Assembly (NCBI GenBank): GCA_003696125.1
Contig: RFHZ01000360.1
Span: forward strand, 1-5,601
Direction of reading: 5' to 3'
Source: Nitrospinota bacterium
GTDB taxonomy: Bacteria; Tectomicrobia; Entotheonellia; J063
Length of the DNA: 5,601 nt
Below the pieces are notes generated by a model. The model did no database searches and was not told the DNA's origin. It saw only the letters and a list, made by a program, of their open reading frames with translations. Positions within the stretch are counted from its first letter, which is position 1. Each line of letters opens with the position of its first letter. Shown here piece after piece: positions 1 to 5,601 of the stretch. A program made the translations under genes and the position numbers.

Positions 1-820
1 GGTCCACGCCGGATCGGCCTTCCACCACCTCACCGTCTACCGGGATCGCTTCCCCGGGGCGGATGCGGACCAGATCGCCCGGCTGCACCTGTTCGATGGG
101 CACCTCGGTTTCCTGGCCGTTGTGCACGACGCGGGCTGTTGGTGGTACCAGGGCCAGGAGCGTGCGGACAGCCTGCGAACTCCGGGTGCGCACCAGCAAC
201 GAGGTGTAGCCGGAGAGGAGATGGTAGGTGGTGACAAAGACGGTGACGGCAAAGAAGTCTAATAATGGGAAGCCAGGAAAGAGATAGGCGAGAAAGCCGC
301 CTATGAGCCCGGCAAAGGCACCAAATTCCAGCAGCACATGCTGGTTGAGTATCCCTCGACGGAGACTGGCCCAGGCCATGGTCAGGATGTGCCAGCCCGG
401 TCCCAGGAGGGTGGAGAGGGCCAGGGTCGGCATAAGCCAGCGGAGGACCGGCCATGCGGATGGTGGTAGTACCTCCCGCCACATCAGGAGCATGGGGATG
501 ACCGCGAGGAGGGCAAATCCTGCGGCCAGGAGCAGATTGTTGCGCTCGCGTCGCAGGGTGGCTTCTTCTTCGGCAAGAGTCCGCTCCCCGGCAGCATCTC
601 GGACCGTATATCCGAGGTCACGCAGCGTTTCCTGGAGTTGAACTGGCGTGATCTGCTGGGGGTCATATTCGATCAAGGCCTCTTCGTGAGCCAGGTTTAC
701 ATGGGCGTTGTGCACGCCCTTCATGCGTTCCAGTGCCCTGGTGATACTGGTCACGCAGAAGGAGCAGGACATGCCACCGACTTTGAGCTGCAGCTTCTCG
801 GTTGACCCGGCTTGCTCCAT
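1..820 (-). CDS. Heavy-metal translocating P1B-type ATPase, N-terminal part (3' end beyond window)
   Basis: This is the first 273 codons of a metal-exporting P-type ATPase of the inner membrane; the frame is open to the window edge. Residues 10-75 form a heavy-metal-associated (HMA) domain with the metal-binding GMSCSFC motif (Cys19, Cys22). Hydrophobic segments follow at about 95-114, 122-150, 162-182 and 186-210, matching the first four helices of P1B ATPases. Residues 225-273 begin the actuator domain, with PGDLVRIRPGEAIPVDGEV typical of the family. The TGE loop, the metal-selecting CPx/SPC helix, the DKTGT phosphorylation site and the ATP domain lie outside. The ATG at 820 is chosen because GAGGAG (831-826) sits 5 bases upstream; an in-frame ATG at 838 lacks such a site. 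It lies just downstream of a MerR-type promoter and of a merR-like gene, so metal-induced expression is likely. Family is certain; metal (Cu, Zn, Cd, Pb) cannot be assigned here. Confidence 0.95.
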   Translation of the reverse strand, partial: MEQAGSTEKLQLKVGGMSCSFCVTSITRALERMKGVHNAHVNLAHEEALIEYDPQQITPVQLQETLRDLGYTVRDAAGERTLAEEEATLRRERNNLLLAAGFALLAVIPMLLMWREVLPPSAWPVLRWLMPTLALSTLLGPGWHILTMAWASLRRGILNQHVLLEFGAFAGLIGGFLAYLFPGFPLLDFFAVTVFVTTYHLLSGYTSLLVRTRSSQAVRTLLALVPPTARVVHNGQETEVPIEQVQPGDLVRIRPGEAIPVDGEVVEGRSGVD

Positions 821-825
821 CGGAT

Positions 826-831
826 CTCCTC
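826..831 (-). promoter_or_regulatory. Ribosome binding site of the P-type ATPase gene
   Basis: GAGGAG on the minus strand lies 5 bases before the ATG at 820. It favours that start over the in-frame ATG at 838, which would add six residues (MSRGDP) and would place this site inside the coding region. Confidence 0.75.
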
Positions 832-880
832 TACTCATCCTGCCGGTACCGGTATACGAAGTTTTTCCCAGGTGAGATAC

Positions 881-912
881 AGTATACACCTTCCAGCAAA
901 CTGGAAGGTCAA
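881..912 (-). promoter_or_regulatory. MerR-type metal-responsive promoter and operator for the P-type ATPase gene
   Basis: On the minus strand a -35 box TTGACC (912-907) and a -10 box TATACT (886-881) are separated by 20 bases, longer than the usual 17. The spacer region carries a perfect inverted repeat, ACCTTCCAG (909-901) and CTGGAAGGT (896-888), around four central bases. Over-long 19-20 bp spacers with a dyad between the boxes are the hallmark of MerR-family promoters, where the metal-bound regulator untwists DNA to realign the boxes. The predicted transcription start is near 874, giving a leader of about 54 bases before the ATG at 820. The MerR-family gene immediately upstream is the obvious regulator. 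Confidence 0.93.
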
Positions 913-1030: not shown

Positions 1031-1468
1031 TCAGCTCAAGCCCTTTTCCCTGGTCGTCTCCATGTGTTGAATATAGGGACAGATCGTTCTCTCGCTATCC
1101 GACCGTTGTTGCGCGGTACGCAGTGTGGCCAGCAGGGTTGAAAGCGTGGCTTTTAGTGTCTGTAGTTCGGCGATTTTCCGTTCAATAATGGTGATCTTCT
1201 CTGCAAGGTGTTGGGCTACCTGGTGACAGGGAAGTATTCCTGTATCGCGTACAGCCAGGATTTCCCGGATTTCGGCCAGGGTCAGTCCCAGGGTCTGCGC
1301 CCTGCGGATAAAGTCGAGCCGGTCAAAGATGGCGGGAGAATAGACGCGATACCCGGCTGGCGTGCGGGAAGGAGGGGGCAGCAGGCCGATACTTTCATAG
1401 TAGCGTAAGGTACGAGGATTCAGTCCTGCTCGCGTGGCCACTGTTCCGATAAGTAACCGTTCCTGCAT
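1031..1468 (-). CDS. MerR-family heavy-metal-responsive transcriptional regulator
   Basis: A 145-residue protein of normal MerR-family length. Residues 6-75 form the winged helix-turn-helix domain, with the diagnostic NPRTLRYYESIGLL (17-30) and GYRVYS (39-44). Residues 82-118 form the long dimerisation helix, and a short C-terminal metal loop follows. Cys81 aligns with the first metal cysteine of MerR and ZntR, a position that is serine in CueR. Cys130, in ICPYI, aligns with the last loop cysteine. The middle loop cysteine(s) found in MerR, ZntR and CueR is absent (LRTAQQ instead), so the metal site differs from the characterised sensors. The ATG at 1468 is preceded by AAAGGAG (1486-1480), 11 bases away. 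It starts 30 bases after the response regulator stop and is probably co-transcribed with it, while its likely target is the promoter at 881-912. Family is certain; effector metal is not. Confidence 0.95.
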   Translation of the reverse strand: MQERLLIGTVATRAGLNPRTLRYYESIGLLPPPSRTPAGYRVYSPAIFDRLDFIRRAQTLGLTLAEIREILAVRDTGILPCHQVAQHLAEKITIIERKIAELQTLKATLSTLLATLRTAQQRSDSERTICPYIQHMETTREKGLS

Positions 1469-1498: not shown

Positions 1499-2884
1499 TC
1501 ATCCCTTACCGGCATCCTGGCTCAGTTGCTGGTATTGTTCCAGCCGGCGATAGAGGGTCTTGCGATCGATGCCGAGCCGTTCTGCCGCTTTCTGCTTGTT
1601 GCCTTTCACTTCCTCCAGCACCTGCAGGATGTACTCCCGTTCCAGCTCTTCCAGCGTTAACCGCTGTCGCTTCCCCCGTTCGAGCAAGGCGTACTCTGGC
1701 CGGCGTGCGGTCAGCATCTCCGGGAGATCGGCCGGCGTTATCCTCTCGTATTGACCCAGGATCACGGCCCGTTCGATCACGTTTTCCAGCTCGCGCACGT
1801 TACCCGGCCAGGGATAGTCGAGGAGGAGTTTAAGCGCCGGTTCACTGATCCCCTGCACCGCCTTTCCATTGCGCTCGGCGTACTTGCGGAGAAAATGGGT
1901 GGCCAGCAGGGGGATGTCTTCGGGACGCTCACGCAGGGGGGGGATATGGAGGGGGAGCACGTTTAACCGGTAGTACAGGTCCTCCCGGAACCGCCCCTGT
2001 TCCACTTCGGTCAGGAGGTCACGGTTGGTGGCGGCAATGATGCGGACATCGACCTGGCGAGCCTGTGTTGCCCCGATCCGGCGCACCTCTTTCTCCTGGA
2101 TGGCGCGGAGGAGTTTGACCTGGAGGGAAGCCGGCATCTCACTCACCTCATCCAGGAAGAGGCTCCCACCATGGGCTGCTTCAAATAAGCCCATCTTCTC
2201 CCGCTGGGCCCCGGTAAAGGCACCGCGCACGTATCCGAACAGCTCACTCTCCAGCAATTCTTCAGGAATGGCCCCGCAGTTCACCGGGATAAAGGGGCCC
2301 TGCTTGCGGCTGCTGTGGTAATGAATCGCTTTGGCTACCAGCTCTTTCCCGGTGCCGCTCTCGCCGGTGATGAGGACGTTGGCCGTACTCTGTGCCACCC
2401 GGCGCATCATGGTAAAGAGGTGCTGCATGGCCGGGCTTTTACCGAGGATATTGGCAAATTCATACGTCTGCTCCACTTCCTGGCGGAGTCGCACCACCTC
2501 CCGGTGGAGGGCCCGCTCCTTCAGCGCCTTGTGGATGGTGAGGAGCATCTCGTCCAGGTGGAAGGGTTTGGTAATGTAATCGTAGGCCCCCTGTTTCATG
2601 GCCTCAATGGCCGAATCGATGCTGCCAAAGGCTGTGATCACGATGACCTGGATGTCCGGGTACAGGAGGCGGGCCTGTTCCATGAGGGTCATCCCGTCCA
2701 TACCCGGCATACGCAAATCGGTCAGGAGCAACTCGTACTCCTGTTGTCGGAGTTTGGCCAGAGCCTCTTCTCCGTCCCCGGCCGTTTCCACCTCCCAGCC
2801 TTCCTCGGAGAGGATCTCCTGCAGAACGGTGGTCATCTCCGGGTCATCATCGACCACCAGAATGGTTGCTGGCACGGTCTGCAT
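1499..2884 (-). CDS. NtrC-family sigma54-dependent response regulator
   Basis: A 461-residue cytoplasmic activator with the three classic domains. Residues 5-120 are the receiver: acidic pocket Asp12-14, phospho-acceptor Asp56 in LLLTDLRMPGMDG, Thr84 and Lys106. Residues 145-380 are the AAA+ domain: Walker A GESGTGKE (174-181), the sigma54-contacting GAFTGA loop (221-226), Walker B SLFLDE (241-246) and the PWPGNVRELENVIERAV region near 358-374. Residues 411-452 are a Fis-type DNA-binding helix-turn-helix. All key residues are intact, so it should activate sigma54 RNA polymerase when phosphorylated, presumably by the kinase encoded just upstream. The domain order and length match ZraR/AtoC/HydG-type regulators. 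I choose the ATG at 2884 because AAAGGAG (2895-2889) precedes it and the receiver fold starts five residues in; the frame is open to a TTG at 2923 with a further ATG at 2911, but the TTG coincides with the predicted transcription start. No sigma54 target promoter is evident in the window. Confidence 0.96.
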   Translation of the reverse strand: MQTVPATILVVDDDPEMTTVLQEILSEEGWEVETAGDGEEALAKLRQQEYELLLTDLRMPGMDGMTLMEQARLLYPDIQVIVITAFGSIDSAIEAMKQGAYDYITKPFHLDEMLLTIHKALKERALHREVVRLRQEVEQTYEFANILGKSPAMQHLFTMMRRVAQSTANVLITGESGTGKELVAKAIHYHSSRKQGPFIPVNCGAIPEELLESELFGYVRGAFTGAQREKMGLFEAAHGGSLFLDEVSEMPASLQVKLLRAIQEKEVRRIGATQARQVDVRIIAATNRDLLTEVEQGRFREDLYYRLNVLPLHIPPLRERPEDIPLLATHFLRKYAERNGKAVQGISEPALKLLLDYPWPGNVRELENVIERAVILGQYERITPADLPEMLTARRPEYALLERGKRQRLTLEELEREYILQVLEEVKGNKQKAAERLGIDRKTLYRRLEQYQQLSQDAGKG

Positions 2885-2888
2885 GCTT

Positions 2889-2895
2889 CTCCTTT
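2889..2895 (-). promoter_or_regulatory. Ribosome binding site that sets the response regulator start
   Basis: AAAGGAG lies 4 bases before the ATG at 2884. A start at 2911 or 2923 would place this purine-rich site inside the coding sequence and would add a charged N-terminal extension that receiver domains normally lack. Confidence 0.7.
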
Positions 2896-2928
2896 CCTTT
2901 TCTCCCTTCATCCACCTGCCCAATCCCT

Positions 2929-3051: not shown

Positions 3052-4857
3052 TTATCCCGGATCTCGCTGAGAGCGGGGCAGGGTCAGGGTAAAGGTGGTT
3101 CCCTTTCCCACGGTGCTGGTCACGGTCAATGTTCCTCCATGGGCCTGCACGATCTGCCGGCTGATCGCCAGTCCCAGACCGGTACCGGTGCCGGCCGGCT
3201 TGGTGGTAAAAAAGGGCTCAAAGATATGGGGGAGGTGCTCAGGCGGGATGCCTGGTCCGGTATCCTGCACGGAGAGGATGACCTTTTCCCGCTTCCCCTC
3301 TTGTTCTGTGCGGACGGTTACGGTCACGGTCCCCCCGTGGGGCATGGCCTGGATAGCGTTTAATACCAGGTTAAAGAGGACCTGTTGCAGTTGATCACCA
3401 TCCCCTTCGATAACGGGGAGCGTCTCCCGGGGAGGGAGGACCAGGGTGATCCGTTGCCGGCGGAGTTGCGCGGCCAGCAATTCCCCCAGGTTTTCCAGCA
3501 GGACGGAGAGATGCACCGGCTGGAAGGAGGGGGCTTTCTGGCGGGTAAAGTCGAGCAGACGGCGCACGATACGCACGATACGGTCGATCTGCTGGAGGAT
3601 CTTTTCCAGTTGTGCCCGGGGAAAGGCTTCGGGAGGGAGCTTCTTCAGCATGTATTCAGCCCGCGTCTGGATGATGTTAAGCGGCGTGCCGATCTCATGC
3701 GCCAGGCTGGCGGTGAGTTGCCCCACAGCAGCCAGCTTTTCCGCCTGCACCACCTGTCGCTGCAGCAAGATCTTCTCGGTGATATCATCGATGACCAGCA
3801 CCGCCCCCTGCAGGTGTCCGGCAATATTTCTCAAGGTATATCCACGGATATTCAAGATCACGTCACCCCGGTTCCGGATATGATGGGTCACGGCATCGAG
3901 CTGCACGGTAGGTTTCTCTCCCCGGCAGAGCTGTTCCACCGCGGTGATGACCCCTTTCTTTTCCAGCGCAGGGAACACCTCAGCCAGTGGTCTTCCCAGA
4001 ACCTCTGCGGCTGGAATCCGGTATTCTTCCTCCATGGCGCGATTCCAGGTCGTAATCCGTCCGGCCGTATCCACCACGATGATCCCGGAGGTGATACTCT
4101 CGATGATGCTGTGCGAGTACTCCTTTTCTTCGATCAGGCGTCTTTGCGCCTCGTGCAGCAGTCCGGTCATGCGATTGAAGGCTGCGGCTACCTGTCCCAC
4201 CTCGTCTGATCGCCGGATCGGAATCCGCCAGGACCACTCTCCCCGTCCCAGCGCTTCGATACCGGTGAGGAGGGCAGCCAGGGGGACTGTGACCCAGCGT
4301 CGCACCAGGGTCACGATGGCCAGGCTCAGCAGCAGGGTAATACCGGCGATAGAGAGGAGATTGCGCACGATAGCGGTCTGTTCAAAGAGATCGACATTGG
4401 CAACCGGCAGCACCAGCAGCACCGCACCGCTGATGGTGTTGTCTGGAGCAAACAGGGGACGCCAGTAGGCAAAGAGGCTGCCTCCTGGTGTCCGGTACAC
4501 CTGGCTCACACTCTGGTGGGAGCGGGAGAGCTGCTGCCAGAGCACGTCGGTCAGGACAATCTCTGGGGGCAGCGTCCCTACCGAGAGCAGGACTTTTCGC
4601 TGCGAATCAAACCAGCGCAGGGCCTGAATCTCCTCCTTCTCCGCTATCCGATCCGCAAATGACCGGAGTGCAGAGGGGTCAGGGGAAGAGGAGTCGGAAA
4701 TGAGCACACGCACCAGCAGGTCGGCATCTTTGGCCAGCATCTGGAGCAGGTGTTCCTTGCCTTTCAGGATCTCCACCACCGCGTGCACCACCATGACCAC
4801 CAGCAGCAGTCCGATGAGCACAACGGTCAAACGTGTTCCCAGCTTCATCCCTTGCAT
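3052..4857 (-). CDS. Membrane-bound sensor histidine kinase (HAMP-PAS-HisKA-HATPase)
   Basis: A 601-residue inner-membrane kinase. A hydrophobic helix at about 10-30 and a second at about 166-186 flank a predicted periplasmic sensor domain (about 31-163). A HAMP linker (187-240) precedes a PAS domain (about 248-360, containing ESITSGIIVVDTAGRITTWN). The dimerisation domain has the H box SLAHEIGTPLN with phospho-acceptor His387. The ATPase domain has the N box NLVLNAIQ (Asn500), the G1 box DTGPGI (532-537), the F box around FEPFFTTK (546-553) and the G2 box GTGTGLGL (556-563). All catalytic motifs are intact. This H box and layout match NtrB/ZraS/AtoS-type kinases that partner NtrC-type regulators, such as the one encoded 167 bases downstream. 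The sensor domain has no cysteine and few histidines, so direct metal binding there is not obvious; the ligand is unknown. ATG at 4857 is supported by AAGGAG at 4868-4863; an in-frame ATG at 4848 is the alternative. Confidence 0.95.
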   Translation of the reverse strand: MQGMKLGTRLTVVLIGLLLVVMVVHAVVEILKGKEHLLQMLAKDADLLVRVLISDSSSPDPSALRSFADRIAEKEEIQALRWFDSQRKVLLSVGTLPPEIVLTDVLWQQLSRSHQSVSQVYRTPGGSLFAYWRPLFAPDNTISGAVLLVLPVANVDLFEQTAIVRNLLSIAGITLLLSLAIVTLVRRWVTVPLAALLTGIEALGRGEWSWRIPIRRSDEVGQVAAAFNRMTGLLHEAQRRLIEEKEYSHSIIESITSGIIVVDTAGRITTWNRAMEEEYRIPAAEVLGRPLAEVFPALEKKGVITAVEQLCRGEKPTVQLDAVTHHIRNRGDVILNIRGYTLRNIAGHLQGAVLVIDDITEKILLQRQVVQAEKLAAVGQLTASLAHEIGTPLNIIQTRAEYMLKKLPPEAFPRAQLEKILQQIDRIVRIVRRLLDFTRQKAPSFQPVHLSVLLENLGELLAAQLRRQRITLVLPPRETLPVIEGDGDQLQQVLFNLVLNAIQAMPHGGTVTVTVRTEQEGKREKVILSVQDTGPGIPPEHLPHIFEPFFTTKPAGTGTGLGLAISRQIVQAHGGTLTVTSTVGKGTTFTLTLPRSQRDPG

Positions 4858-4862
4858 ATGCT

Positions 4863-4868
4863 CTCCTT
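4863..4868 (-). promoter_or_regulatory. Ribosome binding site of the histidine kinase gene
   Basis: AAGGAG lies 5 bases before the ATG at 4857 and supports that start over the ATG at 4848. Confidence 0.7.
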
Positions 4869-4905
4869 GCCCGTCTCACACCTGGCAGGAACACCAGCCC
4901 CTTGC

Positions 4906-4941
4906 CCCTGGCCGAAGCCGGCCCCGGTCCTCTGGCCAGGG
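4906..4941 (-). repeat. GC-rich inverted repeat between the cytochrome and kinase genes
   Basis: On the minus strand CCCTGGCC (4941-4934) pairs perfectly with GGCCAGGG (4913-4906). A second possible 5-bp stem, GGCCG (4923-4919) with CGGCC (4914-4910), overlaps the same arm and would compete with it. The element sits in the 138-base gap after the cytochrome stop. It has no U-run after the stem, so it is not a standard intrinsic terminator. It could be an mRNA-processing or stability structure, or chance in a GC-rich gap. Confidence 0.35.
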
Positions 4942-4995
4942 AGGGAGGGGGAAGGCCATGGCGAGCGAGGTGAGGGGACAACCCGGTTCTGGTGT

Positions 4996-5601
4996 CTAGG
5001 GAGTATGTTTATCCTTTTCCTGGTGTTCCTCTTCGTGGTGTCCTTTTTCCTCTTCTTCGTGGTGTTCCTCTTTCTCCTCCTCCATCGCCTCGTGTCCATG
5101 CTTATGCCCTGCGGCCATCTGGCTGGGGGTAAAGATGTGCGGGTGCCGCAGGGAGACGGTCGGCTGCAGGGAGACCTTGATAAATGGGCTGCCCACCGCC
5201 GCATGACAGCTATTGCAGAGGGCCGTGGTCTGGTCTAGCAGGGTAAGGAAGCGGGCACGATCGCCATCGGCGATGATCTCTTGCATCCCGGTAAAGAAGG
5301 GGGCCAGAAAGCTCTCCAGGAGCACCCCTCTTTGCGGATCGATCGCTTTTAACTGCTCGGCGACCCGTTTCATCTGCAGGAATTCATGGCCGGCCGTGGC
5401 CCAATCCCCGGCTTCCCCGGCAAAGTGGAGCACGTGGAAGCGCTCGCTGAACTCCGGCATCAGGGTGGCGAAATCGGGTCGCAGGCTCCAGAGGAGATCG
5501 AGCTTCTTTTCAATGGCCTGCAAACGGGTCTCGATTGTGCGCAGGGTGTGGAGGATCTCCTTGAGATCTTCCTCAGGTGTAGAGGCCTCTCCACTCCATA
5601 C
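4996..5601 (-). CDS. Putative exported c-type cytochrome-like protein with His/Glu-rich C-terminal tail (5' end beyond window)
   Basis: The final 201 codons of a gene whose start lies outside; the frame is open to the last base. Residue numbers here count from the window edge. Residues 11-40 form an amphipathic, coiled-coil-like helix rich in spaced Leu/Ile, followed by a mostly helical region. A single heme-attachment motif CNSCH (Cys129, Cys132, His133; bases 5217-5203) sits near the end of the helical part, followed by GSPFIKVSLQP. That placement recalls the four-helix cytochrome c' fold and small periplasmic proteins with a CNxCH...FIxV...P ending, as I remember them. Residues 166-201 form a tail of His and Glu/Lys with nine histidines, plausible for binding metal ions. 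Covalent heme attachment requires export, so a signal peptide is expected upstream of the window. It precedes the histidine kinase by 138 bases on the same strand. I do not recognise a named gene; heme binding is likely, function unknown. Confidence 0.85.
   Translation of the reverse strand, partial: VWSGEASTPEEDLKEILHTLRTIETRLQAIEKKLDLLWSLRPDFATLMPEFSERFHVLHFAGEAGDWATAGHEFLQMKRVAEQLKAIDPQRGVLLESFLAPFFTGMQEIIADGDRARFLTLLDQTTALCNSCHAAVGSPFIKVSLQPTVSLRHPHIFTPSQMAAGHKHGHEAMEEEKEEHHEEEEKGHHEEEHQEKDKHTP
5005..5070 (-). repeat. Imperfect 24-bp tandem repeat coding the His/Glu-rich tail
   Basis: The decamer cttcgtggtg (plus-strand reading) occurs at 5031-5040 and again at 5055-5064, exactly 24 bases (8 codons) apart. 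It encodes repeated HHEE units separated by Glu/Lys. A more degenerate copy (tggtgttcct) lies near 5021. The period is a multiple of three, so expansion or contraction would keep the frame. Confidence 0.55.

Follow-up and report, generated by a model that had tools for sequence, protein, structure and literature searches.

The sole precedent in the literature searched for a monoheme cytochrome with disordered His-rich termini was cytochrome c552 of Thioalkalivibrio paradoxus, which its authors set apart from every other cytochrome c without assigning a function to the tails (PMC9456337). Two other described systems are relevant to the present locus. In cytochrome b562 of E. coli the axial heme ligands are Met7 and His102 (PMC7864044), and ZraP, a metal-related protein of the periplasm, is found next to a two-component system of the sigma-54 type (PMC7657598). 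The window analysed here is a 5,601-nt stretch that makes up the entire contig C686 of a genome fragmented into 990 contigs. Five genes were found, all on the minus strand:

4996..5601, minus strand: monoheme cytochrome c gene, predicted class II-type (5′ end lost at the contig end; 201 residues kept)
3052..4857, minus strand: membrane sensor histidine kinase (HAMP, PAS, HisKA, HATPase), AtoS/ZraS-like but under every curated cut-off
1499..2923, minus strand: sigma-54-type response regulator, AtoC/NtrC/ZraR-like but under every curated cut-off
1031..1468, minus strand: MerR-family metal regulator, with Cys81 and Cys130 as its only cysteines
2..889, minus strand: start of a heavy-metal P-type ATPase, N-terminal part with one HMA domain (3′ end lost at the contig end)

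The cytochrome and kinase genes are separated by 138 bases (4858-4995), and in the part scanned between them no terminator was seen on the minus strand, so that co-transcription of the two is possible. The cytochrome frame is open to the contig end; no signal peptide lies inside the part of the gene within the window, and no overlapping contig was found from which the upstream part could be recovered. However, all five complete relatives (5/5) begin with Sec-type signal peptides, and the export assumed in the original prediction is supported by this homology; the window copy is presumably exported too. Cytochrome c assembly genes are present in the same genome. The window ATPase ends, with the contig, before its metal-selecting helices. 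A single orphan ATPase C-terminus runs off a contig end elsewhere in the genome (contig C304; locus L075, 1483-1836, minus strand) and carries FIYN and MAMSS, a pattern characteristic of Cu(I) ATPases; it may supply the C-terminus that the window ATPase lacks. The MerR protein scores the MerR, CadR, ZntR and CueR models about equally, all under cut-off.

Within the cytochrome gene, the following features are referred to below:

5458..5460, minus strand: codon of Met48, predicted sixth heme ligand, at the position of Met7 in cytochrome b562
5383..5436, minus strand: helix A-B histidines H56, H59 and H72 (with E73), proposed second metal site
5203..5217, minus strand: CNSCH heme-attachment motif, residues 129-133, in the last helix
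5098..5148, minus strand: short tail RHPH...HKH (R152-H168), kept throughout the histidine clade
4999..5097, minus strand: Glu/His/Lys-rich arm beyond H168, made of in-frame repeats and found in this gene only among the homologues

The original prediction placed one CNSCH motif and a His/Glu-rich tail in positions 4996-5217. Both are real and the span is exact, with CNSCH starting at 5217 and the frame ending at 4996 (stop codon 4998-4996). The last 36 residues contain 9 His, 14 Glu and 5 Lys, and include HKHGH and two HH pairs. His, Glu, Asp and Lys together make up 29/36 tail residues, a proportion reached in 0/10,000 shuffles of the same protein; nine His in 36 residues was reached in 125/10,000. 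The tail of about 35 residues had been singled out as unusual, and for the part after H168 this is correct: relatives in the clade described below stop no more than two residues past H168, and the window gene alone continues for some 33 more. The RHPH...HKH part, however, is common to these relatives. In the DNA of the arm a 22-base unit occurs three times in frame, with spacings of 15 and 24 bases, from which we infer that the arm probably expanded through duplication of repeats. A duplicate of the tail elsewhere in the genome was considered and rejected, as the sole other DNA match (contig C139) falls in a Phe/Leu-rich transporter-like frame and reflects chance similarity between low-complexity sequences.

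Public genomes yielded 27 homologues, or 28 sequences with the window protein, and 20 aligned members were used for a profile. Alone, the window protein scores 17 bits against Pfam PF01322 (Cytochrom_C_2), under the cut-off of 26.5. The same family was matched by 19/20 members, more than any other (best E 3.4e-5). The profile built from the 20 homologues matches cytochrome c′ (E 4.6e-5); its match to Kusta0087 is weak and sub-threshold (E 0.007). There is no named NCBIfam family for these cytochromes. The AlphaFold2 model (mean pLDDT 73; 88-95 across most of the bundle, <50 across the tail) consists of a long N-terminal helix and then four helices (44-63, 67-87, 89-112 and 115-135), with CXXCH lying close to the C-terminus, where the last helix of the predicted four-helix bundle ends. 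The top VIA-align match to this model was Kusta0087 (Z 11.5, rmsd 2.4, 103 aligned), with cytochrome b562 a close second (Z 10.3, rmsd 2.1, 88 aligned), although Z values of ~10-11 are also possible between unrelated helical bundles and are not decisive. Foldseek alone gave no match under E 0.001. The placement of the window protein among class II (cytochrome c′/c-556/b562-like) four-helix bundles depends on the sequence profile and the residue pattern, and profiles and fold prediction together support the original description of a protein with one c-type heme in a cytochrome c′-like helical context.

The wider family has no name. It comprises exported monoheme class II cytochromes with the motif ERY..LYWAA..G.W.FA.YQ, and recurs in Proteobacteria (L016-L024, L051, L008, L009). 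Its members include Cupriavidus megaplasmid genes, and none reaches a named NCBIfam model. In L051 (2088-3246) a relative is followed immediately downstream by a gene for a multiheme cytochrome.

Invariance across the 20 aligned members, which share 19-42% identity with the window protein, is limited to M48, C129, C132 and H133; Met48 is found in 28/28 homologues. In the VIA-align rows for b562, model residue 42 falls on b562 residue 1 and model residue 138 or 137 on residue 106. This range offset places M48 at or next to Met7, and H133 at or next to His102. The invariance of M48 and H133, together with these positions, leads to the prediction of a low-spin, six-coordinate Met/His electron carrier. 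A cysteine ligand of the NaxLS type was rejected, the homologous position being Met throughout.

What is new here is a clade with a conserved histidine set and a putative second metal site. The clade contains six sequences from five genomes (local support 0.997): the window protein, L005 (a SAR324 bacterium), L006 (a Lambdaproteobacterium), L007 and its paralogue L014 (one proteobacterium), and L015 (another genome of the same class as the latter). Clade members are divergent (35-42% identity), and in all six H56, H59, H72, E73, H153, H155, H166 and H168 are present, the short tail beyond the heme motif following the pattern RH-x-H...H-x-H. H59, H72 and the full tail pattern occur in 0/22 of the other homologues, in which positions 59 and 72 are occupied by Tyr, Trp, Phe, Gly or Ser. 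His is found in 3/22 non-clade sequences at position 56, and is scattered in 3/22 at position 153, where columns are poorly aligned. In the predicted A-B hairpin (helices 44-63 and 67-87) H59 and H72 are level with each other, so in the model a common metal site is possible. This previously unnamed clade is rare and scattered among bacteria. It was found in 2/52 genomes of the SAR324 phylum and 2/369 in one class of Proteobacteria, with no further carriers in either 386 relatives or 398 additional Proteobacteria genomes and no orthologues in four genomes of the same class as the window organism.

The five relatives in the clade lie in differing neighbourhoods. Lipid and transport genes surround L005, and L006 is found with membrane proteins and a class I cytochrome. 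L007 is flanked by a PAS kinase and a LuxR-type regulator, with sulfur-oxidation-like genes downstream (by sequence recognition), and L014 by an oxidoreductase and an ammonium-transporter-like gene. The two paralogues thus occupy unrelated neighbourhoods of one proteobacterial genome (L014 on G062:C97, L007/L010 on G062:C112). L015 has a copper-type P-type ATPase ~5 kb away, which has its own small cytochrome. Because of these differences the window gene arrangement is, on the genomes compared, not a conserved unit. The original prediction had looked to homologues for both tail and neighbourhood: the short His tail is kept, but the long arm is absent from them and the neighbourhood mostly so.

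The explanation that we favour, with moderate confidence, is an exported Met/His cytochrome that carries electrons and also binds transition metal via the clade histidines and tail, the arm raising its capacity. The protein would reside in the periplasm, have the class II fold and a single c-type heme ligated by Met48/His133, and act as a one-electron carrier. A transition metal, most likely Cu or Zn, would be held by H56/H59/H72 and the His-containing C-terminal tail. In the window organism, in-frame repeats would have lengthened this tail into a disordered or helical Glu/His arm of higher metal capacity, and the outcome would be a protein, produced under metal stress, that acts as a metal buffer or in metal-coupled redox reactions. 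The presence of MerR and heavy-metal ATPase genes on the same strand as the cytochrome favours a metal role; on the other hand, no metal genes adjoin the relatives, save for the distant ATPase of L015. Judged from sequence, a metal role for the window cytochrome is plausible, and its tail looks suited to metal binding, as the original prediction had it.

The clade histidines could instead serve protein contacts. The protein would then be an ordinary periplasmic electron-transfer cytochrome with no metal role, in which histidines and charged tail dock a redox partner and the arm is low-complexity sequence that has drifted by slippage. The varied contexts of the relatives (sulfur-oxidation, transport and lipid genes) fit such a protein, as does the confinement of the long arm to one gene where it is built of in-frame repeats. 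Moreover, the His-rich tails of Thioalkalivibrio c552 sit on the electron acceptor of TcDH and no role has been assigned to them (PMC9456337). However, seven histidines (H56, H59, H72, H153, H155, H166 and H168) are invariant in six sequences of such divergence, which is more specific than docking charge needs, and we consider this explanation possible but doubtful. Less likely still is that the clade represents a two-centre protein, in which one bundle houses both the Met/His heme and a distinct Cu site built of histidines (H56/H59/H72 and the HxH tail), with electrons exchanged between Cu(I)/Cu(II) and heme in the periplasm, as a cuprous oxidase or a metal-coupled electron carrier.

It had also been proposed that the protein could be a redox or metal sensor that signals to the neighbouring histidine kinase; ZraP and ZraS would be a comparable pair. 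The one-strand order of cytochrome, kinase, sigma-54 regulator, MerR and heavy-metal ATPase is consistent with this, and L007 likewise adjoins a kinase and regulator pair. However, that pair is of another type, and resembles the window kinase and regulator (29-32% identity) in general kinase and receiver regions only; the match between the kinases (29% identity) covers residues 244-594 and leaves out the sensor region. Using tblastn, no kinase was found in the neighbourhoods of 3/5 relatives. The periplasmic region of the window kinase, having 2 His, 0 Cys and 1 Met, is nearly devoid of metal-ligating residues. Nor was a sigma-54 site found within 4858-4995, allowing up to 3 mismatches, and the total of such hits across the window is at chance level. 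Signalling to the kinase is therefore unsupported, and we regard it as very unlikely. A search for an orthologue of the kinase adjoining a cytochrome gave only distant kinases (38-44% identity), and the two loci inspected had no such cytochrome.

The least probable explanation, a gas-binding five-coordinate cytochrome c′ that buffers NO or CO, draws on cytochromes c′ being the closest solved sequences by profile, but the position of the sixth ligand, at which to our knowledge cytochromes c′ have no ligating residue, holds the invariant Met48, which also argues against a cytochrome c′ context in the strict five-coordinate sense and for a Met/His carrier.

Compared with the class II cytochromes c (c′ and c-556; PF01322), the window protein differs in falling under the Pfam cut-off, and its clade histidines and His tail are foreign to that family; the invariant Met48 is c-556-like. 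Bundle and Met/His ligand positions coincide with those of cytochrome b562 by aligned range (42..138 on 1..106), although sequence identity is only 13-15% and b562 naturally lacks covalent heme. NaxLS (Kusta0087/Kusta0088) of the anammox organism Kuenenia stuttgartiensis provides, in the small cytochrome Kusta0087, the best structural match. However, NaxLS is a heterodimer, no His tail was established for it in this analysis, and the names of its solved mutants (C32M/C101M) point to a Cys ligand there as opposed to Met here. With ZraP/ZraSR the window shares a periplasmic-type protein adjoining sigma-54-type two-component genes, but ZraP has no heme and the window kinase and regulator miss the ZraS/ZraR equivalog cut-offs (206/479 and 466/760 bits, respectively), placing them outside ZraS/ZraR. 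Should copper or zinc indeed be bound by the clade histidines, the protein would be a natural example of a class II cytochrome into which a second metal site is built, a counterpart in nature to the engineered metal-binding variants of cytochrome cb562, and a compact system for asking whether an electron carrier reads or relieves periplasmic metal load. It would also be the second, independent His-tailed monoheme cytochrome after Thioalkalivibrio c552. The latter is likewise monoheme and periplasmic, with disordered His-rich termini and a Met axial ligand (PMC9456337), but has the class I fold, with its heme motif in an early helix. Since the window protein is of class II and c552 of class I, the His-tailed design arose separately in the two.
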